Virus record (IMG/VR): IMGVR_UViG_3300046012_000400
Location: 1 to 32,008 of that record
From: a virus
Strand: one strand, 5' to 3'
DNA length: 32,008 nucleotides
In this document: positions 7,381 through 30,005 of the stretch, one piece after another
Numbering within the stretch: position 1 is the first letter of the stretch
Layout: every line of letters begins with the position of its first letter
Position numbers and translations under genes: made by a program
The notes under the pieces: model-generated
Databases searched by the model: none
The model's input: only the letters and a program-made list of their open reading frames with translations
Told to the model about the DNA's origin: nothing

Positions 7381-7565
7381 GGCTTCTTCAATTCTCTGCG
7401 TTGCGTGACAGTTAGACCCTTTTCCGCCATATCCAGCCACTCATGGATGTCGAACGCAGAGGTCTCCCCGGCCAAGGTCCAGCAGCGTGCTGGGGTCTTG
7501 CCGGTGACCTCACAGAATTTAGCCAATCTCTTGTGCCAGGAGTAATCGCTGGGGTGATCAGACAT
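7377..7565 (-). CDS. 62-residue hypothetical protein
   Basis: Starts MSDHPSDYSWHKRLAKF; a helical, mixed-charge protein ending TVTQRRELKKP. GGAGA lies before the ATG, which overlaps the stop of the paralog-family gene upstream. No family recognised. Confidence 0.6.
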   Translation of the reverse strand: MSDHPSDYSWHKRLAKFCEVTGKTPARCWTLAGETSAFDIHEWLDMAEKGLTVTQRRELKKP

Positions 7566-7923
7566 TGGTGTCTCCGGTGAGCGCGCGGCGGATGCCCGGC
7601 ACGTACAGCGCGAGCGTCTCGTTACTGGCCAACCGTTCGCACTCGGCCAACCCGGCGGCGATGCGGGCCTCGGCGCGTGCCGTGGCGTTCGACGCCTCCA
7701 GGAACTCGTGTGTCAGGCGAGAGACCTCGGCTTCGGCGGCCTCGGCGCGGGCGACCTCTTCGGCCAAGCGCCGCTCCAGCCCTGCGCGCACGGTTTCCTT
7801 GGCGTCCCGTTCGGCGCGGGCGGCGTCCAGGGCGTCACAAAAGTCCAGGATCACCCCGGCCGGGTACTCGTACGCATCCCCACCCCACGCGCTTCGGACC
7901 GCGGCGGTGTCGATGTCGTTCAT
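7558..7923 (-). CDS. DIDTAAIRA-family protein, copy 1
   Basis: 121 residues, one of six paralogs here. It starts MNDIDTAAVRSAWGG, has CDALDAARAERD in the centre, AEAAEAEV and ARAEARIAA helical repeats and ends RRALTGDTNV. The whole centre is predicted coiled coil. The N-terminal third matches copy 2 closely (AWGG, YPAGVIL). The ATG at 7923 overlaps the upstream TGA. Its general style recalls Ead/Ea22-like phage proteins, which also begin with short Asp-rich motifs and contain long helices, but that link is tentative. Confidence 0.75.
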   Translation of the reverse strand: MNDIDTAAVRSAWGGDAYEYPAGVILDFCDALDAARAERDAKETVRAGLERRLAEEVARAEAAEAEVSRLTHEFLEASNATARAEARIAAGLAECERLASNETLALYVPGIRRALTGDTNV

Positions 7924-8114
7924 CAATGACCGCTTCCGGTTGCCAGGTTGATGCATGTTGCGAAGTCGGAGGCCGACTTACACGCCTGGACCTTGGCCAA
8001 GTACCGCTCTTGGTCGTTGTGCGACAAGATGAGCAGTAGGCTCATGAAGAACGTGAAGATCAGGGCAGCGATAAACGAGCCCATTAGGGTGTACCACTTG
8101 GTTTCAGTGCTCAT
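7923..8114 (-). CDS. Small single-pass membrane protein
   Basis: 63 residues: a short polar N-terminus (MSTETKWYT), one membrane helix (about residues 10-30) and a soluble tail with two cysteines, C45 and C54, that could form a disulfide outside the cell. It overlaps genes on both sides. Function unknown. Confidence 0.6.
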   Translation of the reverse strand: MSTETKWYTLMGSFIAALIFTFFMSLLLILSHNDQERYLAKVQACKSASDFATCINLATGSGH

Positions 8115-8289
8115 TGCTCTCCTCTAGAACCCATTTCAGGACGGCGCGACGACCGCTGATCTCCAGCAACGCACGCAGGTACACGCCTTGAGCCCACGGC
8201 TGCTTGGCAGCCAAGAAATGGCCTGCCAAGAATTCATGCTCGTCATTCAGGATATTCAGGTGCTCCCGCACCTGCCGCTCGTCCTTCAC
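8104..8289 (-). CDS. Small helical hypothetical protein
   Basis: 61 residues starting VKDERQVREHLNIL, fully helical, charge-rich. Tandem GTG codons at 8292 and 8289 are possible; GGAGG is six bases before the second, the better spacing. It is the first gene after the promoter at 8352-8380. No family recognised. Confidence 0.6.
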   Translation of the reverse strand: MKDERQVREHLNILNDEHEFLAGHFLAAKQPWAQGVYLRALLEISGRRAVLKWVLEESNEH

Positions 8290-8351
8290 CACCGGCCTCC
8301 ATGCCAGCAGGTTCCTGCGCCCTCTGTGTAGAGCGTCCTTACTTCTCTAGG

Positions 8352-8380
8352 AGACTAGCATCCCCTGCGCGAGCACGCAA
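8352..8380 (-). promoter_or_regulatory. Leftward promoter after the portal gene
   Basis: Minus strand TTGCGT (8375-8380), 17 bases, TAGTCT (8352-8357). It lies directly after the portal stop codon and before the run of small genes, giving that run a transcription start independent of the terminase-portal unit. Confidence 0.5.
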
Positions 8381-8383
8381 GGG

Positions 8384-10075
8384 TTATTTGGTTCCCGGTG
8401 CGCTTCCCGGATTCTGCCGAGGCGAACTTTCCGGGTTGTTGGATGTCTTGGGACCAGTTCCACGCTCGCCAGGGCCCTGCTGGGGCTGGTTAGGGCGTCC
8501 CTCGGAGGGCTGCGGCTGGGCCGCCGGGGGTACTGCATCGGTGGGGGCATTGGAGGCGTCTTTGCCGTCAAGAGCTGCACGAATCTGTGACACTACTGCC
8601 AGCAGGCCGGGCTCCTGGAACAGCTGCGGGGTGACCTGGCAGATCTTGAGCGCCATCTGCAGCGCACGGTCCACGCCCGCGTCCTCTTCGGGCATGTCCG
8701 AAAGCTCGAAGCCAGCAGCCGTGACGGTGGTGCCAGGCTTGAGCAGACCTAGCTTGTAGAGCGATTCGGCCTCGCTGGCCATGTTCGGTCGGGAGATGAG
8801 GTCTTCGCCATCAAGCTCGAAGAAGTACATCTCAGCATCTTCTTCGCTCATCCCGGCTTCGATCGCCATGGGGATGAGGAGATCAGTCAATACGGCGGTG
8901 CCAAAGAGGTTGACGCCGGGCATGAAGTGCAGGCGGACGGTGTCCTCAGCGACCTGCCACGATCCCCAGTGGGAGCTGGCGGCCAGCGCCATGCCCATCA
9001 TCTGCTCGGCAGGCATGTCGAAGCCGACAGCCAGACGCCGGATCAGTTCATCACGGAGATCCTTGGCGACCATGTCCAGCTGGGTGGAGAATGTCAGGTG
9101 TCGAACGGCGTCAGCAGCCTCGTCCGGCACGGTCAGGATCAACGGCACCACCGCAGCGGCGCTCGAGCGATCCTTGATCGGGGTGACCATGGCCTCGATG
9201 ATCGCCGCGACCGTGGGGTCCTCCTCCTGGTCGTCCTCGGGAGCGGTGGCGCCCAGGACGGTGGCTGAGTTGGGCAGGATCAGGACACCGGCGCCCGCTA
9301 GGCGGGAGTCGATGATGCTGGACACGTACATGGTCAGTGCGTTCAGCTCGCGCAGCACCGGCAGAACGGCCTGCATCGAGGAGATAGCCAGGCGGTGGAA
9401 TTGCGGATCCGGGCGGTAGAACTTGACCATCATGATGTCATCGCGGTTGTACGTCTTGCCGTCGATAATCACGCTCACGCCATCGCGGTCTTCCCGGACG
9501 TCGTCACGAGAGCGCACGCACCAGGTGTAGTCCAGCATGCGGGCCTTGGCCCGACGACGGTCACGAGGCTTGCTGGGCGTGGGCAGACCCACCAGGAGGC
9601 CCTCGCCCGCTATGAACAGCATGATGCCCGCGTAGCGGCGCATCTCCTCTGCACTTTGAGCGGAGGTGATCTCATCCCAGAGTGTCTTCATGATCTTGTC
9701 GTTGGCCGTCAGGCGCTTCTGCTCGCTCAGGCGCAGCGACGGGCCGTTCTCCTGCTTACGAGACAGGCACATCTGCACGCGACTCATGCCCGTGCCGTAC
9801 AGGTTGGCGGCGTAGGACACCTCTCCCACGATCTTGAAGAAGCCCCACGCCTCGCGCTGCCAGTCCTGAGACTGCACGCTGTACGGCAGGACGTCGCCGT
9901 CCTTGGTGCGCGTGATGACCTGGGAGGCTGCAGTAAGCGCGCGTCGCGAAACAGGCGCTTTTTCCCGATAAGCCAGCTTGATCGGGTGTCGAAGATCTGT
10001 GGGTGCGATCGGGATGCGCACGCTGGCCACTCCACTCGGGAGTGACTGCGACGGGGTCCAGGGAAGGGTAGCCAT
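8384..10075 (-). CDS. Portal protein
   Basis: 563 residues. It forms the dodecameric ring at the capsid vertex through which DNA is packed and which joins the tail. Recognised by actinophage portal features: the central SSMQAVLPVLREL and SSIIDSRLAGAGVLI region, the AEQMMGMALAASSHW stretch and a disordered Pro/Gln/Gly-rich tail from about residue 510. It follows the terminase genes in the same orientation, as usual. No ribosome site precedes the ATG; TAATAT ends six bases before it, so a leaderless mRNA is likely. Unusually, no capsid protease, scaffold or major capsid gene follows downstream. Confidence 0.85.
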   Translation of the reverse strand: MATLPWTPSQSLPSGVASVRIPIAPTDLRHPIKLAYREKAPVSRRALTAASQVITRTKDGDVLPYSVQSQDWQREAWGFFKIVGEVSYAANLYGTGMSRVQMCLSRKQENGPSLRLSEQKRLTANDKIMKTLWDEITSAQSAEEMRRYAGIMLFIAGEGLLVGLPTPSKPRDRRRAKARMLDYTWCVRSRDDVREDRDGVSVIIDGKTYNRDDIMMVKFYRPDPQFHRLAISSMQAVLPVLRELNALTMYVSSIIDSRLAGAGVLILPNSATVLGATAPEDDQEEDPTVAAIIEAMVTPIKDRSSAAAVVPLILTVPDEAADAVRHLTFSTQLDMVAKDLRDELIRRLAVGFDMPAEQMMGMALAASSHWGSWQVAEDTVRLHFMPGVNLFGTAVLTDLLIPMAIEAGMSEEDAEMYFFELDGEDLISRPNMASEAESLYKLGLLKPGTTVTAAGFELSDMPEEDAGVDRALQMALKICQVTPQLFQEPGLLAVVSQIRAALDGKDASNAPTDAVPPAAQPQPSEGRPNQPQQGPGERGTGPKTSNNPESSPRQNPGSAPGTK

Positions 10076-10081
10076 GTTGCT

Positions 10082-10087
10082 ATATTA
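10082..10087 (-). promoter_or_regulatory. -10 box for a leaderless portal mRNA
   Basis: TAATAT on the minus strand is followed by six bases and then the portal ATG. No convincing -35 hexamer is present at 16-18 bases, so this is only a candidate. Confidence 0.35.
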
Positions 10088-10108
10088 CGGCAAACCTGCT
10101 ACCACGTG

Positions 10109-10324
10109 CTAGCGCTCCGTACTGGCCGCCCTGGGGCAGTGTTTCAGATGTGGGTCCAGTCCGTCACAGTAGCAGGGTCTAGGATCTGTATCCATGTCCA
10201 AGATACCGAAGATCATGTTCAGCGCGCAGTCCACGCAGTGATACTCGTCCGCACAGGCGCTCTTGGCCACATCGATTCTATCTTCAAGAGACTGGATATA
10301 CTCGTCTGACCAGTTATCTTTCAT
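10109..10324 (-). CDS. Small Cys-rich protein
   Basis: 71 residues starting MKDNWSDEYIQSLEDR, with six cysteines (C24, then CVDC, CYC and a last one in KHCPR). GGAGG six bases before the ATG at 10324 fixes the start; a longer in-frame extension runs over the preceding small membrane gene. Probably metal-binding; no family recognised. Confidence 0.6.
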   Translation of the reverse strand: MKDNWSDEYIQSLEDRIDVAKSACADEYHCVDCALNMIFGILDMDTDPRPCYCDGLDPHLKHCPRAASTER

Positions 10325-10427
10325 CAGGAGCCTCCAGAGCCCACTCGTAGAGCGCATCGGTGCCCGCCAGAATGGACGCAGCGCCGATAAAGGCACCTAC
10401 CGCGATCAGGATCGCCCAGAGCGTCAC
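10314..10427 (-). CDS. 37-residue membrane peptide
   Basis: Starts VTLWAILIAVGAFIG, one membrane helix, and an acidic tail. The GTG overlaps the stop of paralog copy 2 (GTGA), and its own end overlaps the next gene by 11 bases. Supported by coupling and composition only. Confidence 0.5.
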   Translation of the reverse strand: MTLWAILIAVGAFIGAASILAGTDALYEWALEAPDER

Positions 10428-10747
10428 TCGGTACCCCCGGTGAGTGCGCGTCGGATGTCGAGGAACGCCCAGTTCCCCGACATGTTCAGGCCACCCACCA
10501 TCACGTAGGGCGCCATTACACCCAGCGCGGCGTTGATGCGGGCTTCGGCGGCCTCGGCGCGTCGCTCTGCTGCGTTGAGGTCCGCCATATCACCCGACTC
10601 GTACTCGTCCAGCAACCGGGTGGCGTCGTCCCGTTCGGCGCGGGCGGCATCCAGGGCATCGCACAGGGCCAGGATCACCCCGGCCGGGTACACGTACGGG
10701 GTCCCGCCCCACGCGGCGCGGGCCGCGTCGGTGTCGATGTCGTTCAT
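10424..10747 (-). CDS. DIDTAAIRA-family protein, copy 2
   Basis: 107 residues starting MNDIDTDAARAAWGG. The N-terminal third resembles copy 1 (AWGG, YPAGVIL, CDALDAARAERD), whereas the central RDDATRLLDEYESGDM and AERRAEAAEARI segments are identical to copy 3, so it reads as a mosaic. The C-terminus is DIRRALTGGTE. The DNA at 10545-10657 is identical to 13235-13347. The start ATG at 10747 overlaps the stop of the small membrane gene upstream. Function unknown. Confidence 0.75.
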   Translation of the reverse strand: MNDIDTDAARAAWGGTPYVYPAGVILALCDALDAARAERDDATRLLDEYESGDMADLNAAERRAEAAEARINAALGVMAPYVMVGGLNMSGNWAFLDIRRALTGGTE

Positions 10748-10827
10748 GACAGTCCACCCAGAATGAAGCCGATGATGAAACTGTACGTGAGGAGCAATGT
10801 CCGCTCCTGCCATCCCCATTTGCTCAT
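10744..10827 (-). CDS. 27-residue membrane peptide
   Basis: Starts MSKWGWQERTLLL and ends GGLS; one hydrophobic helix from about residue 10. It is the first frame after the promoter at 10834-10862, with its ATG seven bases from the -10 box, and its stop overlaps the ATG of copy 2. These positions favour real translation, possibly from a leaderless mRNA. Confidence 0.5.
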   Translation of the reverse strand: MSKWGWQERTLLLTYSFIIGFILGGLS

Positions 10828-10833
10828 GATCTG

Positions 10834-10869
10834 AGTTTGCTCTTCCTATAGCTGTAAGTCAAGCGGTTC
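10834..10869 (-). promoter_or_regulatory. Leftward promoter with extended -35 element
   Basis: On the minus strand GAACCGCTTGACT (10857-10869) includes the -35 TTGACT; 17 bases later is CAAACT (10834-10839). It differs from the element at 2672-2684 only in its last base. It restarts transcription after the terminase terminator, in front of a membrane peptide and paralog copy 2. Confidence 0.55.
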
Positions 10870-10891
10870 ACGGTAAGTCAGACTAAAAATT

Positions 10892-10970
10892 CTGCGGAAA
10901 AATGCGTGGCAGCCGGATCGGTATCAAGACACCCGTTCCACCACCGGCCCTTACCGGGTCACGGCCACGC
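10892..10970 (-). terminator. Terminator after terminase large subunit
   Basis: On the minus strand GCGTGGC (10964-10970) pairs with GCCACGC (10904-10910), immediately followed by ATTTTT. The 53-base loop is long and can fold internally (CCGG/CCGG). The T run makes it the best intrinsic terminator candidate of the leftward block, but the loop is unusually large. Confidence 0.45.
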
Positions 10971-10976
10971 TTTAGC

Positions 10977-12374
10977 CTATCTGATCCGATATTGCGTTAT
11001 TCTCAGCTTAGGCTTCTTCGCCACGACCTCAGCCTGCGGTACGTTGGTACCTCTCGGTTTGCGAGCGCCTACCTGCTTGACTACCCACGCAAAAGCGTGG
11101 CCCAGACTGTCCACCTGGTCGTCATACTTGCCGCTCGGGAAGCTCAACAGCTCTCCGAGGAAATCATCATTCCAGCGTCCGGGCGCCATCTCCACGTCCC
11201 CGGCAGCAATCAAAGAAGCAGGCAGACGCGCTCTAGTTAGCTTGTCGCCGCTGGCCGGGGTGGCCGATGTCGGGTAACCCATCAACCAACGCTGACGAAT
11301 GTCTCGCATAGCCAGCTTTCCGGCCGAGCCCAGCTCCTGCTCGATGACCTGAGTGATACCGCGCCCGTCCTTCTCGGCGGTGGCGCGCATAGTTTTCTCG
11401 AGCAGCAGCGGGTCGGCCTGAATCCGGACGACATCCATGATGCGCCACAGGCCCGTACGACGATCGTAGGCCAGCTTCGTACCCACGGCGTAGTCGCCCA
11501 CGCCCGAGGCCGCCAGGTCCCAGGCCCGGCACATGACCGCCCTGTCCCAGTTGCCGTTGGACTTGTGCTCGGGGACGGCAGCCAGCGTGCGGATGTCGAA
11601 GTAGCCCCCGGTGGGCTCGGCATCCCAGTTACCGTGCTCCATTTGGGCGCGGGTGTAGGGGTCCAGCTCGGCCAGCATCTCCCGGTAGGTCTCCACGTCG
11701 AGGTGAGGGTTGTCCGAGAGGTTGGCGGGTATGAACGTGCGCTGCTGTGCGGCCTCAGCCTCTTCCACGGTGGTGGGAGGAATGGGCTTGACGTAGCGGT
11801 CCTTCAGGTAGATGTGCGAGGCGCCGCCGGGGTTGCTGGCCAGGCGCATGCGCAACGGAGTGTCCGAGTTCACCCTGTCCTGCCGCAGACGAGTGAATAG
11901 GTAGCGCAGCTGGACCTCGCTGAACTGGCTGGCCTCATCGAAGCCCACGAAGTCCCAGCGGGAGGACTGATAGCGATACTTGTCTCCATCTGTGGCCATG
12001 TAGCCGAACACCAGCTTGGCGCCGGAGGGGAAATGCCATTCACGCCCCGCGTCCTTACGCTTGGCCTCGGTACCGTGCAGCCACTGATCGGCCAGGTCCA
12101 TAGGCGCACCGGGCAGGGCTAGGTCGGCGTAGGTGCGGCGCAGAATCAGAGCGCGGTAGCTGGGCTTGTCCACGTACAGCAGGGCGGCGGCCAGCATGGC
12201 GATCGTCTTACCGCCACCGGCTGCGCCGCCGAACATGACCTCGCGCTCCTCGGCCAGCACAAACTGCCACTGCTTCGGGGTTAGCTCGAATGGACAGTAG
12301 CCGGAGTTTCGCAGGAAGGCCATGCGCTCTTCCCAGCGCTTGACTCGAGCGATCTGCTCGGCCATGTCAGTCAT
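10977..12374 (-). CDS. terL: Terminase large subunit
   Basis: 465 residues, the DNA packaging motor with N-terminal ATPase and C-terminal nuclease. Walker A is GGAAGGGKT (residues 49-57) and Walker B ends in FDEAS with Asp146 and Glu147. The RNase H-like nuclease has Asp286 in RAWDLAAS, Glu345 in EQELG and the DDQVD group at 418-422, the three expected acidic positions. It overlaps the terminase small subunit gene by eight bases and precedes the portal with four small genes between them. An internal ATG three codons further in is an alternative start. Confidence 0.95.
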   Translation of the reverse strand: MTDMAEQIARVKRWEERMAFLRNSGYCPFELTPKQWQFVLAEEREVMFGGAAGGGKTIAMLAAALLYVDKPSYRALILRRTYADLALPGAPMDLADQWLHGTEAKRKDAGREWHFPSGAKLVFGYMATDGDKYRYQSSRWDFVGFDEASQFSEVQLRYLFTRLRQDRVNSDTPLRMRLASNPGGASHIYLKDRYVKPIPPTTVEEAEAAQQRTFIPANLSDNPHLDVETYREMLAELDPYTRAQMEHGNWDAEPTGGYFDIRTLAAVPEHKSNGNWDRAVMCRAWDLAASGVGDYAVGTKLAYDRRTGLWRIMDVVRIQADPLLLEKTMRATAEKDGRGITQVIEQELGSAGKLAMRDIRQRWLMGYPTSATPASGDKLTRARLPASLIAAGDVEMAPGRWNDDFLGELLSFPSGKYDDQVDSLGHAFAWVVKQVGARKPRGTNVPQAEVVAKKPKLRITQYRIR

Positions 12375-13107: not shown

Positions 13108-13113
13108 GCCGTA

Positions 13114-13143
13114 AGCCTACCCCCCCGCAATACGGGGTAGCAA
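13114..13143 (-). promoter_or_regulatory. Terminase promoter overlapping a hairpin
   Basis: Minus strand TTGCTA (13138-13143), 18 bases, TAGGCT (13114-13119), then six bases to the terS ATG. The spacer contains the inverted pair CTACCCC/GGGGTAG (13117-13140), so a DNA-binding protein or a fold of the readthrough RNA could affect it. Confidence 0.45.
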
Positions 13144-13144
13144 G

Positions 13145-13456
13145 CTATTCGGTGCCCCCGGTCAGCGCGCGGCGGATCTGTGCGCGCGGGATGCCGTGGT
13201 CCGGGAGCATGGCCATCGCGGCGGCGATGCGGGCCTCGGCGGCCTCGGCGCGTCGCTCTGCTGCGTTGAGGTCCGCCATATCACCCGACTCGTACTCGTC
13301 CAGCAACCGGGTGGCGTCGTCCCGTTCGGCGCGGGCGGCATCCAGGGCGTCACACAAGAGTCGGGCCGCGTACTCCCAGTAGCTGCGGCACGAGTCGGTC
13401 ATGCCCTCAATCTGGTACGACCCGGCCCGGATCGCGGCGGTGTCGATGTCGCTCAC
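13145..13456 (-). CDS. DIDTAAIRA-family protein, copy 3
   Basis: 103 residues starting with GTG, sequence VSDIDTAAIRAGSYQ, then LLCDALDAARAERDD, a coiled-coil centre with AERRAEAAEARIAA, and a C-terminus QIRRALTGGTE. The middle is identical to copy 2 in protein and over 113 bases of DNA. The GTG overlaps the upstream stop (GTGA). It lies directly upstream of the terminase promoter. Function unknown. Confidence 0.75.
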   Translation of the reverse strand: MSDIDTAAIRAGSYQIEGMTDSCRSYWEYAARLLCDALDAARAERDDATRLLDEYESGDMADLNAAERRAEAAEARIAAAMAMLPDHGIPRAQIRRALTGGTE

Positions 13457-15060: not shown

Positions 15061-15063
15061 CGG

Positions 15064-15594: not shown

Positions 15595-16098
15595 TCAGTC
15601 CTCTCTAACACCATTGAAATTCAGCCCACTGAGCGCATATCTGTGATTCAAGCCGTAGTCCGTAACCTGCTGCACAACCTTGGCCAGTGCCTCTTGCGGT
15701 TGGTGCAGCCAGTGGCTCACGAACAGATAGCGGGCTCTCTGGTACAGGTACATCTGCCCGGTCCCCCAGCGAGCTACCTGCTCGCAAATGTCATCGGAGA
15801 ACCAGCTCTCATCCAGCAGTCGCAGAGTCCCAAGACGATTGGGCAGAGCGATTGGGTCTCCGGTCGGCACGTCCTCGAGCACTCGGGTCATACGACGGTA
15901 GAGAGGGTCCAGGTCGTCCGGCTGGAACTCGGGCGAGTTTACGTAGCGGTCACCGCACAGCAGACCGGTGGGCAGAACAGAGGGCAGCGTGTCGAAGCAG
16001 GCCCAGTTCAGCAACTCTGCGCGCTCACTGGCGGTCAGTGAGAACACCTGGGGCTTTGGCCTCCAGCCGTCATTTCCTCCGGCAAACATACCGAACAC
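15595..16098 (-). CDS. Hypothetical protein
   Basis: 167 residues, rich in aromatic and leucine residues (YLYQRARYLFVSHWLHQ), likely all-helical and soluble. GTG at 16098 lies just after the upstream stop; an ATG three codons inside is an alternative. No motif recognised. Confidence 0.6.
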   Translation of the reverse strand: MFGMFAGGNDGWRPKPQVFSLTASERAELLNWACFDTLPSVLPTGLLCGDRYVNSPEFQPDDLDPLYRRMTRVLEDVPTGDPIALPNRLGTLRLLDESWFSDDICEQVARWGTGQMYLYQRARYLFVSHWLHQPQEALAKVVQQVTDYGLNHRYALSGLNFNGVRED

Positions 16099-16266
16099 TC
16101 ACTCGCCCAACACGAACTTGATCAGCTTCTGCGCCTCGAGGAGTTGATCCTCGGCCTGGGGAAGAGCCATGCCGGTTTCCGCCCAGGCTGAGTCTCGAGC
16201 GATAACGACCTCGATCGCCCAGGTACGCACCTTGACCATCTGCTCTTCGGTCAACTCAATTGCCAT
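16099..16266 (-). CDS. 55-residue helical protein
   Basis: Starts MAIELTEEQMVKVRTW and ends IKFVLGE; two amphipathic helices. GGGAG lies nine bases before the ATG, and it begins a unit after the terminator of the collagen-like gene. A TATACA box sits about 30 bases upstream without a clear -35. No family recognised. Confidence 0.6.
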   Translation of the reverse strand: MAIELTEEQMVKVRTWAIEVVIARDSAWAETGMALPQAEDQLLEAQKLIKFVLGE

Positions 16267-16364: not shown

Positions 16365-17345
16365 CTACGCGGAGTGCTGACCACGACGTCGGGAAACCGC
16401 GATGAAGCCAGCGCCACCCGCGATGACCGCCAGGGCGATGCCGCCGATCGCCCAGTCCTGGGTCGAGCTAGCGCCAGTGTGGGGCAGAGCCGGGATCTCG
16501 GTCTCGGTACCGTCCTCATGGACGATGACGGTCTTAGAGACGCCGTCCTTGCCGTTGACCCCGGCGATGCCATTGATACCGTCAGCGCCCGGCAGACCGT
16601 CCTTGCCGTCCACGCCGTTGAGACCGTTGGCACCGTTGCACACCACGAAGGTGTCCTCGCCGTTGTAGATCGCGACACCGCCCGTGACGCAGACCTCGCC
16701 CGGCTCGAGGGTGCCAGCGGTCACCGAGGTGCCAGGGATACCCTGGACGCCCTGGACGCCGTCAGCGCCCTGCAGACCGGTGTCGCCCTTGTCGCCCTTC
16801 GGCCCCTGGGGGCCTACCGGACCCACGTCCCCATCCTTGCCATCGCTGCCAGCAGCGCCAGCAGCGCCCTGCGGTCCTGCAACTCCCGGAGTTCCCGGCG
16901 CACCTGTGGGTCCAACAGGGCCGACGAGACCGGCGGGGCCAGCCACACCAGGCAGACCGTTGGCCCCAGCGGGACCGGTCGCCCCGTCCTTACCATCAGC
17001 ACCCGGAAGGCCGTCCTTACCGGGGGCACCTGCATCGCCCGCAGGGCCCGCCGGTCCCTGAGCACCGTCAGCGCCAGTTGCACCCTTGTCACCAGTAGCA
17101 CCCTTGTCGCCCTTCTCTCCCTTGGCGCCCGTTGCGCCTGTGTCACCCTTCTCGCCCTTGGGGCCCTGCTGACTAGCAGTACCACACACGAAATGCGCGA
17201 CCTCGGTGTAGCTGGACTCGTTGTAGACCTGGACGTGCTGTCCGGGGCACGGGTCTTCGTGGTGGGCGCTAGCCGCAGCGGCGGTGGCGAGCGGAGCGCC
17301 GATCATGACCGCAGTCACGACCATGGCGCGAGTCTTGAGATTCAA
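16365..17345 (-). CDS. Secreted collagen-like protein with LPxTG sortase anchor
   Basis: 326 residues. Signal peptide at about 1-27 with Lys4 and Arg6; a short Cys-containing domain (28-60); Gly-X-Y collagen repeats (61-205); a small globular insert with two cysteines (206-238); a further Gly-rich run (239-269); then LPHTG (287-291), a membrane helix (about 298-317) and RRR, the full sortase sorting signal. The mature protein should be linked to the host peptidoglycan, unlike phage tail collagens, which have no signal peptide. TTG start after GGGGA; an ATG seven codons on would lose the basic n-region. It might alter infected-cell surface or block further phages. Confidence 0.85.
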   Translation of the reverse strand: MNLKTRAMVVTAVMIGAPLATAAAASAHHEDPCPGQHVQVYNESSYTEVAHFVCGTASQQGPKGEKGDTGATGAKGEKGDKGATGDKGATGADGAQGPAGPAGDAGAPGKDGLPGADGKDGATGPAGANGLPGVAGPAGLVGPVGPTGAPGTPGVAGPQGAAGAAGSDGKDGDVGPVGPQGPKGDKGDTGLQGADGVQGVQGIPGTSVTAGTLEPGEVCVTGGVAIYNGEDTFVVCNGANGLNGVDGKDGLPGADGINGIAGVNGKDGVSKTVIVHEDGTETEIPALPHTGASSTQDWAIGGIALAVIAGGAGFIAVSRRRGQHSA

Positions 17346-18898: not shown

Positions 18899-19708
18899 TT
18901 ACTTACTGATCTTCCCCAGGGCACGCCCCAGGGAGGTGAGAGAGACGGACTTGCCGTCGCGTCCAAGGACGCTGGGGACCTTGCCACGCATGTGCGCGGG
19001 GATCCGGGCCTTCGTGGCGTAGTGCGTGTCCGGGCCTAGGCGCACCACGTAGCGCATCACGGCCTCGCCGTCCTCGGTCAGCTCCTCGATCACGTCGGTG
19101 TACAGGACGTAGTCGGGAGTGGCCATGGCGATAGAGCGGGAGCCCTTGGACACGTCTGGGTACAAACGCACCTCTCCCTCATCGTCCTCGTGCGCCTTGG
19201 TCTGGCAGGTGAAGACGACGTGCATCGGACGCTTACGATTGCCGTCCGCCAGGGACATCCAAAACGTGCAGGTGTCCGTCATGATCTCGAGGATTGTGCC
19301 CCACGTCCGCTGGTCAGCGGTCTGCCGACCCTTGCGGATCTCGGACACGGTGTCTTCCTCGAAGCCCAGCTGGAAGCGCATTGCGCTCTTCTGGACAGCG
19401 CCCAGCGAGTCTAGCACCACAGCCACATAGTCGTGGTCACCCTTGGCCAGCGCCTTGTAGATGGCGGTAAGCTCGACCACGGTCTTAGGTCGAACGAGGT
19501 CAATGTTCTTGGCGTACGGCGCCCCCTTGAATGAGGTGGTGCCTCTCTCACCGACCAGGTCAACGAACAGCGTCTTGCCGGTCTCGGCGATAGTGGACGC
19601 CAGCAGCGTCTTCCCGGAACCCGGTAGGCCATGCAGCAGAACGCGCATGCCATCATCGGGTGCATCTTCTGAGGGCCCAATGGACAGGCCCGGTATGTTC
19701 AAGCTCAC
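18899..19708 (-). CDS. Sak4-like RecA-fold recombinase ATPase
   Basis: 269 residues. Walker A GLPGSGKT (27-34), Walker B YVAVVLDS with Asp100, and the later HVVFTCQTKA strand match the AAA_24/Sak4 group of phage single-strand annealing ATPases. These load on single-stranded DNA with a partner binding protein to drive recombination, here probably the DUF669-like product encoded next. GTG start after CCGGAGG. It is preceded by a 275-base untranslated leader with a TATAAT box. Confidence 0.8.
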   Translation of the reverse strand: MSLNIPGLSIGPSEDAPDDGMRVLLHGLPGSGKTLLASTIAETGKTLFVDLVGERGTTSFKGAPYAKNIDLVRPKTVVELTAIYKALAKGDHDYVAVVLDSLGAVQKSAMRFQLGFEEDTVSEIRKGRQTADQRTWGTILEIMTDTCTFWMSLADGNRKRPMHVVFTCQTKAHEDDEGEVRLYPDVSKGSRSIAMATPDYVLYTDVIEELTEDGEAVMRYVVRLGPDTHYATKARIPAHMRGKVPSVLGRDGKSVSLTSLGRALGKISK

Positions 19709-19983: not shown

Positions 19984-21084
19984 CTAGTGTACCGCACCCT
20001 CAGCTTTTCTGCGCAGTCCGTAGTCGGCCGGAACGATTTCGTCGTATGGCTGACGACCGCCCACCAGGTCTGCCCGGCATAGACTGCTGAACTCGCAGAA
20101 GCCGCAGTGCGAACCGTAGACCGGGATGCTGTTCTCCGTGGTCACCGTCTCGGCCCGCTCGGCCTGACGCGCAGCGCTGATTACGTGCTGACTGTAGACG
20201 TTGTAGAGAAGCGGCTTGCGGGTGAACCTGAACCAGCGGTCCCGCTGCCCGGACAGTTCGTCGTAGAAGGCCTGATCCAGAGGTAGCCCTTCCTCCTGAC
20301 ACCACTTCTTGTATGTGTATGCGTCGAAGTCGGTGGTGGACTTGGCCAGCCGGGGCGGAGAGTTCTTGGTGCCCTTGGTCATGGCCGGAGTAGCGGGTTT
20401 CTTGAAGCGTGCTCGCGCGTACTCCACCGCATCCGGCACCAGCTCTTTGTCCCCGGACAACTGGCGCAGCGAGTCGGCAACGCCCCAGGCATTGAAGTGG
20501 TTCTGGCTGTTGATCAGATCCTCGATCGCGGAGGCTGTCTGAGGCCAGGCCTGGTTCAGCTTAAAGTCCCGCACCACGACCTGGTTGGTTTCCGGGTCCA
20601 GGTACACCAGGTCGGCCCTACCGGTAGCCTCGAGCCCGTTGGGCAGCGTGCGGGTCCAGTCGAACTCGACCAGCAGTGGGCGGCCGAAGTCCTTGTCCAC
20701 GTTCCCGCTGTGGTTGAAGCGGATCCACAGATCCCACATACGTGCGGACAGCAGGTCGCCGTACTCCTCGCGCATGGCGTCGAGGAACTCGGACTCCTGC
20801 AGAATTTCCCACTCGCGCAAGGCGTCAATCACCCTATCGATAGTGGGCTCTGCGTAGACGCCATCAATGACCTGTATCTGATCAGGTACCCCCTGCAGCA
20901 GGGATCCCCAATATTGGCCCACGTTTAAAGCCTGGGCCTGCATCACGGAGTGCCATGCGCTCCCCCGGAGCAGGGCCCAAGGGACCTGTCCGGCGGGGCG
21001 CAGGCCCTCGCGATAGTGCAGAGCGAAACGTCGCTCACATTGCTGCAACTTGCCCAAACTGGAGTACGAATACTTCACATCCAC
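19984..21084 (-). CDS. Cas4/AddB-like PD-(D/E)XK nuclease with Fe-S cluster
   Basis: 366 residues. The start, YSYSSLGKLQQCERRF, carries the first cluster cysteine (C16); GSAWH gives His45; the nuclease centre is Glu140, Asp158 in GRADLV and Asp173-Phe-Lys175; C327, C330 and C336 in HCGFCEFSSLC complete a [4Fe-4S] site. This layout is that of RecB-family exonucleases such as Cas4 and AddB. It would resect DNA ends to give single strands for the Sak4-like protein. No CRISPR genes are present. GTG start after GAGAGAGG. Confidence 0.85.
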   Translation of the reverse strand: MDVKYSYSSLGKLQQCERRFALHYREGLRPAGQVPWALLRGSAWHSVMQAQALNVGQYWGSLLQGVPDQIQVIDGVYAEPTIDRVIDALREWEILQESEFLDAMREEYGDLLSARMWDLWIRFNHSGNVDKDFGRPLLVEFDWTRTLPNGLEATGRADLVYLDPETNQVVVRDFKLNQAWPQTASAIEDLINSQNHFNAWGVADSLRQLSGDKELVPDAVEYARARFKKPATPAMTKGTKNSPPRLAKSTTDFDAYTYKKWCQEEGLPLDQAFYDELSGQRDRWFRFTRKPLLYNVYSQHVISAARQAERAETVTTENSIPVYGSHCGFCEFSSLCRADLVGGRQPYDEIVPADYGLRRKAEGAVH

Positions 21085-21521: not shown

Positions 21522-21855
21522 CCCCCTCATACCAGTCGTCTTCAAACTCTTCGTCAGTCATGAGATGCGAGTCAGATCCATAGCGATATTTACCCACCAT
21601 CTCCGAGCGCCAGTACTCTTTCGGCCCAAGAGGATAAACCTCTGCCATCTCGTTCTGATGATACAGCTCTTCTTGAGCAAGGCCGTCATGATGAGCCAAG
21701 CAGATCTCGGATACGGATAGATCTCTAGAAGTTCTGCGAACATAAACCCCTACAGAACAACTTCCCCACGGGATAGAAACTCCACCCACGTTTAGCTGGC
21801 CATCTTTAGGCTCGGCCATTCCCACAAACTCAGCCGGTAGAATGTATGTCACCAC
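21517..21855 (-). CDS. Hypothetical acidic protein
   Basis: 112 residues: a beta-rich first half (LNVGGVSIPWGSCSVGVYV) and a very acidic C-terminus (MTDEEFEDDWYEGE). The GTG at 21855 overlaps the Mom-like gene by 26 bases; an ATG at 21819 is the other choice, and neither has a clear ribosome site. No family recognised. Confidence 0.55.
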   Translation of the reverse strand: MVTYILPAEFVGMAEPKDGQLNVGGVSIPWGSCSVGVYVRRTSRDLSVSEICLAHHDGLAQEELYHQNEMAEVYPLGPKEYWRSEMVGKYRYGSDSHLMTDEEFEDDWYEGE

Positions 21856-22549
21856 AACAGTCGGTCTCCCCTACGTCATGAATTTCGTTGAACTCGTGCC
21901 TTCCCCAAGGCCTTCTGCACACCGTCATGTATTGAGCTAGAGAGATTGAGACCACCGGCGGCGGTACTTCGTTCCAGTCCATCACGGTCCAGGCGCAGCA
22001 CTTGGCCAGCCAACGTCGTTCCCAGGCGTTCCCCGTGGTGATCCAGTACCTGACCTTGGGAAGTCGAGCAACCTTCATTCCAGTCTCGGGCGTCCAGGGC
22101 TCGGACTTGGAGGTGTAGCGCCCGTCCGCTAGTCGGTAGTCGTAGCACTGGTAGTCGCGGTCCATGTCAGTCCAGCCCGCGTATTTGAAGTTCAGCGCAC
22201 GGTAGATGATTCCTAGATGCCCTTCACGAGTATCGGCGTAAGAAACGACGATCCTAGCGGGCATCCTGCGCAGGCACTGACCCACGAACCAGGACTCAGT
22301 CAACTTTGGCATGGAATCGTGAACCCACAGTCGGTTCAGCTCTACTACGGCTTCCGGATAGCCTGGGCAGGCGGACATCTTGACCGCCCGCCCGGCAGGG
22401 ACTCCGAACGTGCATACTCCAACCATCTCGTCAGCCTTGAACAGGCCGAAGGGGAACGAAACACTGGGCTTTCGGTGGAGATAGTGTTCGCGTTCCACGA
22501 CTTCGCGCGCCAGGCTTGCTGTGATCTCCCGTACTTCAATCTCACCCAT
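21830..22549 (-). CDS. Mom-like DNA adenine hypermodification enzyme
   Basis: 239 residues. HYLHRKPSVSFPFGLF, VGVCTFG, VVELNRLWVHDS, RIVVSYADTREGHLG and IIYRALNFKYAGWT match the Mom family, a GNAT-like fold. Phage Mu Mom converts adenine in DNA to an acylated form that resists many restriction enzymes. A Cys-rich tail (KCCAW, CCGD) follows the core. Its own promoter lies at 22557-22585 and gives a start within about seven bases, so translation is probably leaderless; a GTG one codon earlier is the alternative. No separate cofactor gene is seen nearby. Confidence 0.7.
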   Translation of the reverse strand: MGEIEVREITASLAREVVEREHYLHRKPSVSFPFGLFKADEMVGVCTFGVPAGRAVKMSACPGYPEAVVELNRLWVHDSMPKLTESWFVGQCLRRMPARIVVSYADTREGHLGIIYRALNFKYAGWTDMDRDYQCYDYRLADGRYTSKSEPWTPETGMKVARLPKVRYWITTGNAWERRWLAKCCAWTVMDWNEVPPPVVSISLAQYMTVCRRPWGRHEFNEIHDVGETDCCGDIHSTG

Positions 22550-22556
22550 CACAGCA

Positions 22557-23762: not shown

Positions 23763-23940
23763 AATCGCGAGTCGTGAGTCACGGACATGCGGTGTGTGTC
23801 CAGGAGGAGTTGAGGATCAACAGAGAGTCATAATGTAGTTACTAAGAGAGAAGATTCGTCTATTAGGTTTATTGCGTTACGCTCATATCGGGGTACAGAC
23901 GTGCTGTTGTGGTTTGGAGAGACGGGGGGGTCCGTGACTC
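23763..23940. repeat. Divergent control region, copy B
   Basis: Colinear with copy A at 2403-2590: AATCGCGAGTCGTGA, TCACGGACA, GAGGATCAACAGA, TAGTTAC and TTATTGCGTTACGCT occur in the same order and spacing. GAGTCACGGAC (23776-23786) recurs inverted at 23930-23940, bracketing an AT-richer core. As in copy A, leftward genes begin on one side and rightward genes on the other. The rest of 23671-24025 holds only promoters. Confidence 0.65.
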
Positions 23941-24007: not shown

Positions 24008-24025
24008 GGGGACTTCCCCTCACTC

Positions 24026-24367
24026 ATGTCCGGAGGACGAGTGCGTCTACACAACTGGCACCAGTGGACTCCAGCCGAGCGCGAACTATGGCAGAACATG
24101 GAGAACATTCACGACAAGCGCGACTGTCAGCTGCGCGGCGGTCCCTGCTCGGTGCATAGGCCCAGCGATCATCACATGCGAACCTGGTACCCCCACTGGC
24201 GCAGCGACCGGGGCATCCTGGAACGGATCTGTGAGCACGGAATAGGACATCCTGACCCTGATCAGTTCCAGTACTGGAATCAGACAGATCAGGACTGGCA
24301 GAGGGTGCATGGCTGCTGTGGCTGCTGCTCAGATCCTGAGGGGGCCCACCTTGTCTCTCCTACCTGA
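24026..24367 (+). CDS. Small His/Trp/Cys-rich protein
   Basis: 113 residues. Highlights are RTWYPHWRSDRGILERICEHGIGHPDPDQ and a late CCGCC cluster. The H-x-x-C and C-x-x-H-G-I-G-H-P style is common in small actinophage proteins and probably binds metal. It opens the rightward replication operon with a very short leader. Overlap of 59 bases with the next frame is long, so one of the two starts may be misplaced. Confidence 0.6.
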   Translation: MSGGRVRLHNWHQWTPAERELWQNMENIHDKRDCQLRGGPCSVHRPSDHHMRTWYPHWRSDRGILERICEHGIGHPDPDQFQYWNQTDQDWQRVHGCCGCCSDPEGAHLVSPT

Positions 24368-25247
24368 AGCCTTGCGCTTGACGCAGTGGTTCAATGTGTT
24401 CCCCCTGGGCCCTGGGGGCAAGCCACTGGCCAACTGCTGGGACTGCTCTCGCTCCGGCGGCAACTCGTGCCCCACGCCCGAAGCGATGACCTCGTGCAGG
24501 TGCTGGCACTGCCACTCGATGTACCGAGCTACACCAGACCCCATCTCCGTGGAGAACGCCTGGTCGGAGATGGACAACCCAGGCTCAGCTCTGATCGGCA
24601 TCCGTACTGGCGGCGGGTTTGTGGTGGTGGACTTCGACAAGCACGGGGCTCACGACGGCACCGAGACGTTCAACCGCTGGCGGGAGGAGGGCGTCCTGCG
24701 CAACACCTGGATCGCTCGTACCGGCGGTGATGGGCTGCACCTGTACTACGCCCTGCCCGAGGACATGGTCGTGCGCAACGGACAGCCGTTGGGCACCGTT
24801 GGCGTGGACATCAAGGGCGACGGCGGCTACGTCGTAGCACCACCCAGCGCCAAGGAAGGCCAGGAGCCCTACCGCTGGGTGGACGGCAAGGCGCCATGGG
24901 ATCTGGGCATAGCGCCCATCCACCCGCAGCTGCTGGAGACGATCGTCGCCCGACCCGAGCGCCGCGCACCGTCCATCGAGCGCATGAACGACTCGTCCGC
25001 TACGCTGAACCTCTTCCACTGGTTCATGAACACCTTCCCGATGGACGGCGGCAACCGGAACAACTACCTATTCCAGGCTGCGTGCGTGGGCGGGGAGTGC
25101 GTGGAGCAGGGCTTCATCAGCGAGGGCGCCGTGATCGAGTTTTTGGGGGAAACCGCCCGCGAAGCCGGTCTGCGCGACGGAGAAATCCGTGCCACGATCG
25201 CCTCCGGAATCAACAAGGGAATCAACAACATCAGAGGAACTAAGTGA
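24309..25247 (+). CDS. Prim-Pol type DNA primase/polymerase
   Basis: 312 residues. FPLGPGGKPL, the Cys-rich insert CWDC/CRCWHC, then GFVVVDFDKH with Asp108 and Asp110, WIARTGGDGLHLYY (His144) and VDIKGDGGYVVAPPS form the Prim-Pol catalytic core (bifunctional DNA primase/polymerase N-terminal domain). It makes primers for replication. The C-terminal 100 residues are a helical primase-associated tail. ATG at 24309 has GAGGG before it; a TTG at 24351 after GAGGGGG would remove most of the overlap with the gene before. Confidence 0.85.
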   Translation: MAAVAAAQILRGPTLSLLPEALRLTQWFNVFPLGPGGKPLANCWDCSRSGGNSCPTPEAMTSCRCWHCHSMYRATPDPISVENAWSEMDNPGSALIGIRTGGGFVVVDFDKHGAHDGTETFNRWREEGVLRNTWIARTGGDGLHLYYALPEDMVVRNGQPLGTVGVDIKGDGGYVVAPPSAKEGQEPYRWVDGKAPWDLGIAPIHPQLLETIVARPERRAPSIERMNDSSATLNLFHWFMNTFPMDGGNRNNYLFQAACVGGECVEQGFISEGAVIEFLGETAREAGLRDGEIRATIASGINKGINNIRGTK

Positions 25248-25546
25248 CTGACATCGACACCGCCGCGATCCGGGCCTGGGTACTCGGGATCGATCCGTAC
25301 TACTCGGATGCCCGTGAGGTCGAGATCATCCGCGATTTAGTGGATGCCCTGGACGCCGCCCGCGCCGAACGGGACAACTGCAAGATGTGGCACGGCGACA
25401 ACGCCTGGTGCGAGAACCTCCTGGCCCGCGCCGAGGCCGCCGAAGCCCGCATCACCGCCGCTGTCGCTATCCACGATGACGTGCGGCTCACAGACGAACG
25501 CTGCGCGGCCGACATGTACCGCGCGCTCACCAGGGGCACCAAGTGA
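25244..25546 (+). CDS. DIDTAAIRA-family protein, copy 4
   Basis: 100 residues from GTG: VTDIDTAAIRAWVLG, then LVDALDAARAERD, LLARAEAAEARITAA and a C-terminus MYRALTRGTK. It sits between the primase and the P-loop ATPase and overlaps both by four bases (GTGA each side), so the operon would be intact without it. Its first 34 bases after the start codon are almost the same as in copy 5. Function unknown. Confidence 0.75.
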   Translation: MTDIDTAAIRAWVLGIDPYYSDAREVEIIRDLVDALDAARAERDNCKMWHGDNAWCENLLARAEAAEARITAAVAIHDDVRLTDERCAADMYRALTRGTK

Positions 25547-26925: not shown

Positions 26926-27205
26926 GCACGAGGAAGATCTGGAAGAGGCGCTGGAGCCTACGATCCTGGACATGGACGACAATCCAGTCTGGATCCACGG
27001 TTGCGAGACGGTCATTGCCGGGGAGGAGGACGGAGTCCCTGCCATCCATGTGGTAATTAGCGCATACCGCGGCACCTGCAACATGGGCGACGATCACTTC
27101 ACCGAGGTGAACCACTTTTACGACAGTGCTCGGGCTCGCAAATTCGCCGCCGGTCTACTGAACGCTGCTGACATGCTCGATGAGTACATCGCTTCGGAGG
27201 AATAG
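26918..27205 (+). CDS. Acidic hypothetical protein
   Basis: 95 residues from a GTG that overlaps the ATPase stop (GTGAGTGA). Sequence starts VSEHEEDLEEALE; the C-terminus FYDSARARKFAAGLLNAADML is a long helix. Strongly acidic. The upstream ATG at 26885 is rejected because it lies deep inside the ATPase gene. Family not recognised. Confidence 0.65.
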   Translation: MSEHEEDLEEALEPTILDMDDNPVWIHGCETVIAGEEDGVPAIHVVISAYRGTCNMGDDHFTEVNHFYDSARARKFAAGLLNAADMLDEYIASEE

Positions 27206-27207
27206 AC

Positions 27208-27660
27208 GTGACCCGGAAGAAGCCTATCCGGCCGCTGATGGAGTCCTGCCCGCAGTGCTTAGCCAAGCCCGGAATCAAATGTACTGAGCAAGGTTTCGTG
27301 CTGGAACAAGTTCACATGTCTCGCTACAGCATTGCCTCCATCCGGCAGACTCCGCCGCCAAAAGCTCCGGATATTTCCGTCCTTTTGGTCAAGTGCCCGC
27401 GCTGTGGGGCCATGCCCCGCCGTACCTGTGCTGGTCCCCCCCCAATGCGTGACCCCAAGCCGTACCATAAAGAGCGATGGCTGGAGAAGTTCAAGCTGGA
27501 TAACGCCGGGCGTCGGGCACAGGGCCTGGAGCCGCTCACTCCCGAGCAGTGGGGCAGGCCGTGGCTCGAAAATCGGGATGCGCCTCCGGCTAAGGTCGTT
27601 GGATGGCGCGAATTGCAGGAAGCTCGTGAGCAGAAGGAAGAGATGAGACAGGATGACTGA
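27208..27660 (+). CDS. Tandem zinc-finger DNA-binding-type protein
   Basis: 150 residues with two copies of one module: C14-x2-C17-x7-C25-x10-H36 and C63-x2-C66-x7-C74-x12-H87, each beginning CPxC and followed by a basic helix with Arg (SRY, KERW). This CCCH arrangement is known from many small actinophage proteins thought to bind nucleic acid. GGAGGAA precedes the GTG start. The C-terminal 50 residues are charged and helical. Confidence 0.75.
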   Translation: MTRKKPIRPLMESCPQCLAKPGIKCTEQGFVLEQVHMSRYSIASIRQTPPPKAPDISVLLVKCPRCGAMPRRTCAGPPPMRDPKPYHKERWLEKFKLDNAGRRAQGLEPLTPEQWGRPWLENRDAPPAKVVGWRELQEAREQKEEMRQDD

Positions 27661-28102
27661 CATCGACACCGCCGCGATCCGGGCCTGGATACGGAATCCC
27701 AAGGACGACTGGATGTTGTCGTTCGGCGACGTGGCCGATCTGTGTGACGCCCTGGACGCCGCCCGCGCCGAACTCCGCATCTGCACCGAGAACCGCGATC
27801 TGGTGAAGACCCGCGCCGAGGCCGCCGAGGTCCACAACCGCAACTACCTGCGGGTCATCAAGGGCCTGGAGCTGCGCGCCGAGGCCGCCGAAGCGTCCGA
27901 GGTGAAGATGGCGAAGCTCATGTGCGACGCGACTTCCCGCGCCGAAGCCGCCGAAGCCGACCTGATCCACGCGCATGAAACAGCGGACATCTACCTAGCC
28001 CGCGCCGAGGCCGCCGAAGCCCGCATCACCGCCGCCCTGGCGATGGGTCCGGACCATCTAAGCGTTCAGGCGTTTGACGCTCTCGGAGGGTACGACGAGT
28101 GA
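27653..28102 (+). CDS. DIDTAAIRA-family protein, copy 5
   Basis: 149 residues, the longest copy. MTDIDTAAIRAWIRN, DLCDALDAARAELR, then four AEAAE-type repeats (TRAEAAEVH, RAEAAEASE, RAEAAEADL, RAEAAEARI). The usual C-terminal RRALTGGT is absent; it ends FDALGGYDE. It lies between the zinc-finger gene and the helicase gene, overlapping by eight and four bases. Coiled coil is predicted over most of its length. The differing repeat number suggests expansion by recombination. Confidence 0.75.
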   Translation: MTDIDTAAIRAWIRNPKDDWMLSFGDVADLCDALDAARAELRICTENRDLVKTRAEAAEVHNRNYLRVIKGLELRAEAAEASEVKMAKLMCDATSRAEAAEADLIHAHETADIYLARAEAAEARITAALAMGPDHLSVQAFDALGGYDE

Positions 28103-29574
28103 CGTATCAATTTGCTACGCCCGCGCCCTACGCCCACCAGGCGGAGGGCGTTCAGCGTCTCATGAAGAGCGACGGTGTCTACATGCTGGCCTACGACGTG
28201 GGCACCGGCAAGACCCGCTGTGTCATCGACTACCTCGGGCTGCTCGCGGTCCACGCCCAGCAGGAGGTGCGGGTGCTGGTGTGTGCGCCTAAGAGCGTAG
28301 TGGACACATGGGAGTTGCAGGTCAACCAATGGTCCAGTCGGTCATGTGACTGGAATGTCAAGGCATTGGTCGGTTCGATCCAGCAGAAGCAGGAGCAACT
28401 GGCTAACCCGTACACGCTACAGGCAGTGCAGGACGGTCCCTCCGTCGAGATCCGGGTAGTGAACTACGAGGCACTCTCCTCCCGACGCACGCGCGGGGGC
28501 AAGCTGGACTCCGACCACTGGTTGAATGCAGTCAAAAAATACGCGCCCCACGTCCTGATCTGCGACGAGTCGCAGCGCGCCAAGGGCAACAGTTCCAATG
28601 TAGCCCGGCTGCTGCACCGTATCGCTCCGCTAGTGAAGCGCCGGATCCTACTTTCCGGCACACCGATGCCTCACTCGCCACTGGACATCTACAGTCAGTT
28701 CAAGATTCTAGATCCCACCGTGTTCTGGACTGGCTCCAAGCCTATGACCTACAGCCAATTCGAGGCCAAGGTAGCCATCATGGGGGGCTGGGCCGGGAAG
28801 CAGATCACCGGCTGGCGAAACCTGGACTGGCTGGAGAGCAAGATGGCCGCGCGCAGCCACGCCCTGCGCAAGGAAGAGTGCCTGGATCTGCCGCCCGTAA
28901 CTCACGTGGACGTGCCGGTGCGCCTCTCCGAGCGGGAGCAGAAGGCCTACGACAAGGTCAAGCGGGAGATGGTCTTGGCCCTCTCCAATGGTGAGCTGAT
29001 GTCCACCCCATCCATGCTCATCAACCGCCTGCGCCTGCGCCAGCTGACGTGTGGCTTCGCGAAGGAAGACGATACCGGTGAAGTTCATTGGCTCGGCAGC
29101 TCTCGTATCGATAGCGCTGCAGACCTTGTGTCGTCTCTGCTGGAGAGCCAGGATCGAGTGGTCGTGTTCGGCTGGGCGCTCGCGGAGATCGAAGCGCTCA
29201 AAGAGCGACTCGGGGACGTCGCCCACCTAATCACAGGCAAAACGCCTGATGCCCAACGTCTGCTACTGCGCCAGCAGTTCGGAGACACAAAAAAGTTCCC
29301 CGAGAAGATGGTGATCATCGCCCAGTGGCGCACGATTAGTCTAGGCATCAACGAGCTGGTCACAGCCAGTCACGCGGTCATGATGTCCCTCACCGAGCAG
29401 CGTGAGGATATTCTGCAGGCCATGGGACGACTCGATCGTCCGGGCCAGACTTCCCCGGTCTTCTACCACTGGCTCCTGGCGCGTGGTACCGTGGACGAAG
29501 TGGTTAGGCGTTCACACCTTGAGCGCACAGACCTAGAACGCGGGCTTCTGGACTACCTAAGGGACAATGCATGA
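28099..29574 (+). CDS. SNF2-like superfamily 2 helicase
   Basis: 491 residues. Motif I DVGTGKT (33-39), Ia VLVCAPKSVVDTW, motif II DESQ (156-159), motif III LSGTPM (185-190), and in the second domain VVVFGW, SLGINELVTA and QAMGRLDRPGQ (motif VI). These define an SNF2/Rad54-type DNA translocase as found in many phage replication operons. DESQ replaces the usual DEAH/DEGH box, within normal variation. GTG start overlaps copy 5. Confidence 0.9.
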   Translation: MTYQFATPAPYAHQAEGVQRLMKSDGVYMLAYDVGTGKTRCVIDYLGLLAVHAQQEVRVLVCAPKSVVDTWELQVNQWSSRSCDWNVKALVGSIQQKQEQLANPYTLQAVQDGPSVEIRVVNYEALSSRRTRGGKLDSDHWLNAVKKYAPHVLICDESQRAKGNSSNVARLLHRIAPLVKRRILLSGTPMPHSPLDIYSQFKILDPTVFWTGSKPMTYSQFEAKVAIMGGWAGKQITGWRNLDWLESKMAARSHALRKEECLDLPPVTHVDVPVRLSEREQKAYDKVKREMVLALSNGELMSTPSMLINRLRLRQLTCGFAKEDDTGEVHWLGSSRIDSAADLVSSLLESQDRVVVFGWALAEIEALKERLGDVAHLITGKTPDAQRLLLRQQFGDTKKFPEKMVIIAQWRTISLGINELVTASHAVMMSLTEQREDILQAMGRLDRPGQTSPVFYHWLLARGTVDEVVRRSHLERTDLERGLLDYLRDNA

Positions 29575-30005
29575 CCGATATCGACACCGCCGCGATCCGC
29601 GCCGAGTTCGTCCAGACGAGGCACAGTCAGGTGGACGTGACGATCGGTGCGCTGTGTGATGCCCTGGACGCCGCCCGCGCCGAAGCAGACCGGCGCATGA
29701 GCCCTCCCGAGATGTACTGGCGCAAGAAATGCGGAGAGGCCGCCGCCCTGTACGTCAAGGAGATGGAGGCGAAGTTTCGGGAGCAGATCCGCGCCGAGGC
29801 CGCCGAAGCCAAGTTCGAGAAGCTCACCGAGCAATACAGGGACGTGGTGGGCGAACTGCTAGACCGCGCCGAGGCCGCCGAGGCCCGCATCGCCGCCGCC
29901 CTGGCCGTCCATTCATGGCGCGAGATTGACGGTGATACCGGCGATCAGGGCGAGCCTGTTGTCCTTCAGTCCGACGTCCGTCGCGCACTCGGGGACATCG
30001 GGTGA
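29571..30005 (+). CDS. DIDTAAIRA-family protein, copy 6
   Basis: 144 residues: MTDIDTAAIRAEFVQ, LCDALDAARAEADR, IRAEAAEAKFE, DRAEAAEARIAAAL and the C-terminus DVRRALGDIG. It overlaps the helicase stop (ATGA) and the next gene (GTGA). A longer middle section (KKCGEAAALYVKEMEAKF) is unlike the other copies. The conserved ends suggest swapping of central segments. Function unknown. Confidence 0.75.
   Translation: MTDIDTAAIRAEFVQTRHSQVDVTIGALCDALDAARAEADRRMSPPEMYWRKKCGEAAALYVKEMEAKFREQIRAEAAEAKFEKLTEQYRDVVGELLDRAEAAEARIAAALAVHSWREIDGDTGDQGEPVVLQSDVRRALGDIG

Follow-up and report, generated by a model that had tools for sequence, protein, structure and literature searches.

Six homologous open reading frames (ORFs) of 100 to 149 amino acids were found between essential genes, on both strands, in an uncultured, soil-type phage, and their conserved segments are shared between copies as short blocks of nearly identical DNA. 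The explanation we consider best, with an even chance of being right, is that they are ORF cassettes, lacking a nuclease, which would come and go and become homogenised through recombination at short homologies while operon coupling is kept, and which would encode helical rods with exchangeable segments.

The window, meaning the whole stretch of 32,008 bases that was analysed, is IMG/VR virus record IMGVR_UViG_3300046012_000400, here called phage A. It had no megablast match among 50,697 phage records, and among named phages its portal protein was closest mostly to those of Microbacterium phages, at ∼33% identity. All six ORFs (W1 to W6) were open at the coordinates given by a first-pass annotation of the sequence and carried the motifs reported there, while its assignment of neighbouring genes was corrected for the portal and large terminase. 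The copies and relevant neighbours are as follows.

7558 to 7923, minus strand: W1, family copy of 121 amino acids at site S2
8384 to 10075: portal gene
10424 to 10747, minus strand: W2, family copy of 107 amino acids at site S3, between the large terminase and portal genes
10744 to 10827, minus strand: hydrophobic ORF of 27 amino acids; its stop codon and the W2 start overlap at ATGA
10977 to 12374: large terminase gene
13145 to 13456, minus strand: W3, family copy of 103 amino acids at site S4
18899 to 19708, minus strand: Sak4-like single-stranded DNA annealing protein (phrog_124, E 1e-25; PF13479)
19984 to 21084, minus strand: PD-(D/E)XK exonuclease, the proposed partner of the annealase
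24309 to 25247: Prim-Pol primase gene
25244 to 25546, plus strand: W4, family copy of 100 amino acids at site S6, between the Prim-Pol primase and ATPase-helicase genes
27653 to 28102, plus strand: W5, family copy of 149 amino acids at site S7
28099 to 29574: helicase gene
29571 to 30005, plus strand: W6, family copy of 144 amino acids at site S8, past the helicase gene
30002 to 30157, plus strand: ORF of 51 amino acids, starting with GTG and overlapping the W6 stop at GTGA

In the alignment of W1 to W6, the D-I-D-T, DALDAARAE and EARI segments were invariant, with variable stretches between them. Overlaps with neighbours were mostly of four bases, and the neighbours overlapped by W2 and W6 include the very small ORFs listed. 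Several copies overlap the genes on either side. The earlier claim that all copies overlap the next gene did not hold for W3, which does not overlap the downstream gene. Elsewhere, the window encodes a Mom-like DNA modification protein (21830 to 22552; PF25680, E 2e-31) and a collagen-like tail fibre protein (16365 to 17345; many PHROG tail matches). It also contains an 80-nt direct repeat (79%; 2402 to 2481 and 23763 to 23842) that is apparently non-coding, includes CGTGASTCACGGACA, is placed upstream of rightward genes at 2610 and ∼24026, and resembles a shared promoter or operator.

Searches with the portal, terminase and ATPase yielded two related phages, B (IMGVR_UViG_3300025914_000050, extended by IMGVR_UViG_3300009545_000053, to which it is 99.98% identical across 11,772 nt) and C (IMGVR_UViG_3300005577_000050). 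Their amino acid identity to phage A was ∼90% for the terminase and 87 to 91% for the portal. The comparison covers three related genomes, all incomplete and metagenomic, with B and C close to each other. Both carry the same coiled-coil family, and a profile built from their copies detected all six copies of A (E 1e-5 to 2e-9).

The DNA-level likeness was confined to the family. Four conserved segments, GACATCGACACCGCCGCGATCCGGGCC, GACGCCCTGGACGCCGCCCGCGCCGAA(CGGGAC), CGCGCCGAGGCCGCCGAAGCCCGCATC and CGCGCGCTCACCGGGGGCACC, occurred 4 to 6 times each with no more than 3 mismatches, and motif DNA, scanned for across the window, was found solely within the six genes. The 27-nt core GACGCCCTGGACGCCGCCCGCGCCGAA was present six times (up to 3 mismatches) and the DNA of the AEAAEARI module five times, each in the six genes only and with no occurrence in 100 shuffles. 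When 18-mers recurring at distances above 500 nt were mapped across the window, all their clusters likewise fell within the six genes, and the dispersed clusters of B and C were confined to family genes in the same way. Dispersed 18-mers numbered 56 per 10 kb in phage A versus 0.2 to 5 in three named phages with related portals, and no comparable repeats were observed in the distant relatives L011, L012 and L039.

Identical codons at identical residues were observed in 519 of 672 cases versus 370 ± 13 (maximum, 427) when synonymous codons were permuted within each gene in 400 permutations (z = 11). A likeness limited to low-complexity Ala/Glu helix, which the first-pass annotation had named as a possible undoing of its reading, is countered both by this match and by the profile from B and C.

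The blocks were ∼20 to 40 nt in size and nearly identical between copies, while the intervening segments were mostly unrelated. W2 and W3 have in common a 144-nt block at 10522 to 10665 on the minus strand, repeated at 13213 to 13356, with 113 exact nucleotides set between unrelated N- and C-terminal parts, and W1 and W2 have the N-terminal half in common (121 nt, 86%). Mosaic exchange among the copies is the best interpretation of this patchy sharing, and the 144-nt block is apparently a recombinant segment of W2 and W3.

Occupancy of the sites in the three phages was as follows.

S1: copy in C only; off the contig in B; in A, a gene for an SprT-like metallopeptidase lies nearby (6388 to 6783; HELLH, under the Pfam cut-off)
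S2: copy in A, B and C
S3, terminase/portal: copy in A and B, absent in C
S4: copy in A and full copy in B; in C, only an ORF of 52 amino acids, of uncertain homology
S5, 16090 to 16110, minus strand: stop/start junction unoccupied in A, copy in B and C
S6, primase/ATPase: copy in A, cleanly empty in B
S7: copy in A; a different ORF of 47 amino acids in B
S8: copy in A; a dCMP deaminase gene in B (L029, 12942 to 13391)

Contrasts between occupied and empty sites ran in both directions, with one exact to the start-stop overlap. Site S6 reads CTCA-GTGA-GTGTTG in B, where it is empty, and GTGA flanks the cassette on both sides in A. The first-pass annotation would have been contradicted by related phages carrying an identical set of copies at identical sites with ordinary vertical divergence; the sites of A, B and C coincided only partly. 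Taken with the likeness at the DNA level, these partly different sites support the cassette-like, spreading nature it had suggested.

Around the S2 copy, B and C have in common a block of ∼1.3 kb at 99 to 100% identity (G002, 1 to 1330; G001, 35823 to 37150), which ends sharply inside the portal gene, with ∼85% identity beyond. The block points to recent recombination among these phages, in an exchange that carried one family copy. The S2 copy of B (G002, ∼542 to 1010, and the same in C) continues the open frame of a hydrophobic stretch that precedes it, MMWAVCIGLGIFLGAEQ, in the manner of a fusion to a small membrane ORF.

Each lineage was found to have its own signature. Copies in A read DIDTAAIRA, LCDALDAARAERD, RAEAAEARI and RRALTGGTE, and those in B and C read ELDLDAL, LIAELRACRAERD, RAERAEARIAAAL and RRALTGGDQ. 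Among IMG/VR contigs, none contained the exact A block, and B and C alone contained the B/C block. A tree of the blocks separated the A copies from the B/C copies with 100% bootstrap support. Nucleotide identity of the blocks averaged 81% within A and was 55 to 64% between A and B/C copies at the same site; that of the flanking portal and terminase genes was ∼81% between A and its relatives. Paralogs within a lineage were therefore more alike than copies at the same site in different lineages, the pattern of a concerted multigene family. Since three of the four sites of B are also sites of A (P ∼0.02 under random choice), old shared sites with subsequent concerted evolution are a better fit than spread that was independent throughout. 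The split could also have been produced without gene conversion, if a single founder had been amplified separately in each lineage.

The first-pass annotation was mistaken in reporting no recombinase gene, as the window encodes both the Sak4-like annealase and the exonuclease listed above. Sak4 of HK620 is an ATP-dependent annealase that anneals single-stranded DNA (PMC5928155), and lambda Red recombines genes that are 22% diverged (PMC2327257). The family blocks, at 20 to 40 nt, are near the usual minimal homology of ∼30 bp (as cited in PMC2327257). Sequence RTGA (ATGA or GTGA, in which the stop and start codons of coupled phage genes overlap) was present at the start of 10/10 copies with a known start versus 12/31 other genes (p = 0.0007), and at the end of 6/10 copies versus 9/31 other genes, an enrichment that was not significant (p = 0.13). 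As read from these junctions, RTGA may be either an insertion target or the outcome of selection for translational coupling.

Under the cassette explanation, each unit would begin with RTGA and usually end with it, so that it would fit an operon junction with neither neighbour harmed and would be translated through coupling to the essential gene upstream. The conserved 20- to 40-nt blocks, designated N (DIDTAAIRA), M (LCDALDAARAERD), R (RAEAAEARIAAA) and T (RRALTGGT), would provide the short homologies. Recombination of the annealing type, for which the Sak4-like protein and exonuclease encoded by the phage are the probable agents, would copy blocks between sites; sites would thereby be homogenised within a lineage, while the segments between blocks were exchanged. 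The conserved blocks would probably hold an oligomer together, and the variable N-terminal, rod and C-terminal segments would probably touch different targets. Counting against this explanation are the missing downstream overlap of W3, the commonness of RTGA starts in operons and the lack of significant enrichment at the ends.

From the patchy sharing between copies we infer exchange, and two other accounts of the blocks were weighed against it. The family may instead have arisen by lineage-specific duplication only, an ancestral gene having multiplied independently in A and B/C because dosage or subfunctionalisation favoured it, with the blocks as residual recent identity and no continuing exchange. 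The division of the copies into two clades and their great difference outside the blocks fit this account, but simple duplication predicts even decay, and the observed identity is patchy, with nearly identical blocks of 24 to 39 nt beside unrelated segments and, in W2/W3, 113 exact nucleotides between unrelated flanks. The coincidence of most B sites with A sites is a further difficulty, and we consider the account doubtful. It is very improbable that purifying selection on protein function alone maintains the motifs, for example at a dimerisation interface, with a GC-rich codon bias mimicking DNA identity. The codon usage of the family is indeed biased (toward GCC, CGC and GAC) and the blocks are largely helical in the structural model, but permuting synonymous codons removes the excess of identical codons, and the motifs of A differ from those of B/C and are therefore not functionally invariant.

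The junctions themselves might suggest a true mobile element, whose cassettes transpose by a trans-acting enzyme (a recombinase or homing nuclease encoded by the host or at another place in the genome), with RTGA as target site and repeat. Insertion exactly between genes on both strands is consistent with this, as is S6, with GTGA once in the empty site of B and on both sides of the cassette in A. However, no inverted ends were seen at the copies, the cassette is without a nuclease, RTGA at both ends is also expected from selection for translational coupling, and the sequence between blocks is not conserved as it is in the MPMEs of mycobacteriophages (PMC4351075). Transposition of this kind thus seems unlikely.

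For the protein, an AlphaFold2 model of W6 from the 12-sequence alignment (mean pLDDT, 85.7; pTM, 0.47) placed helices at residues 6 to 13, 20 to 42, 45 to 120 and 133 to 140, with the conserved blocks largely helical. The family protein is accordingly predicted to be a helical rod in which short helices at the N terminus precede a long coiled coil, variable in length, and a small helix closes the C terminus, and a partner-binding role would suit this model. The family had no Pfam or NCBIfam match above the curated cut-offs, no PHROG match was found below E 0.04, and a Foldseek search of the model against viral models gave nothing below E 6. A single match in a PDB-sequence profile search (E 0.06) was judged to be chance, and weak matches to DeaD_dimer, FGase and Asn_synthase in Pfam and to LmuB and SMC in PADLOC/NCBIfam were dismissed as arising by chance or from coiled-coil sequence. 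Genome searching with the 12-member alignment was prevented by its variability; family-profile searches of IMG/VR returned known relatives or nothing. Nothing was found with the terminase in GTDB genomes, and when a B copy, W3 and the Cys-rich C terminus of one copy were compared with named phages by tblastn, nothing significant emerged. No reverse transcriptase, a sign of a diversity-generating retroelement, was detected among the genes scanned, and literature searches returned no description of such a family.

The likeness to Ea22/Ead proteins of lambdoid phages that had been suggested found no profile support: PF13935 was unmatched at E ≤ 1 by the six window and six B/C copies, and a PHROG match was also lacking. 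Ea22 has a short N-terminal domain, a variable coiled coil and a variable C-terminal part with conserved last residues, and is oligomeric in lambda (PMC7093339, PMC10834534). A prolysogenic role is among the traits of the Ea22 group. The family model resembles it in this general layout only (compare PMC10834534). Unlike Ea22, which lies between exo and xis, the family has many copies per genome, stands among structural and replication genes (portal, terminase, primase and helicase) on both strands, and shares blocks as DNA.

Other parallels are found among small phage genes that move between other genes. MPMEs are elements of ∼440 bp with one ORF of ∼120 amino acids, inverted repeat ends and conservation of the whole element (PMC4351075). 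Like them, the family consists of small single-ORF units between phage genes, with hybrid copies and with presence and absence at a site in close relatives (here S3, S5 and S6), but only its internal blocks are conserved. Free-standing homing endonuclease genes, in which domains are swapped (PMC10448857), also adjoin essential genes, have a lineage-specific distribution and shuffle domains between copies; the family proteins, in contrast, are predicted helical rods of 100 to 180 amino acids in which no nuclease domain was detected with Pfam, NCBIfam or PHROG. The start-associated sequences of Cluster K mycobacteriophages and the 17-bp repeats of Cluster O (PMC3203893, PMC4351075) are comparable as genome-specific, dispersed short DNA repeats, many at gene starts or junctions. 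The former, however, lie just upstream of the start codons of different genes and the latter are dyad sequences often between genes, whereas the family repeats are coding blocks of one gene family. The family would accordingly count as a variant of mobile intergenic phage genes.

More tentatively, and below an even chance, the family may be a self-renewing system in which the same conserved coding blocks would both mediate oligomerisation and give recombination its landing pads, so that a repertoire of partner-binding coiled-coil proteins could be multiplied, relocated and reshuffled at operon junctions without a dedicated nuclease or transposase. Phage genomes are compact, and the filling of several essential-gene junctions by one unclassified gene therefore implies a strong benefit or efficient spread. 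It offers a concrete case of a gene family that is apparently both homogenised and diversified by short-homology recombination inside a single phage lineage. If the family's products bind varied targets, it would supply phages with effectors that change rapidly.
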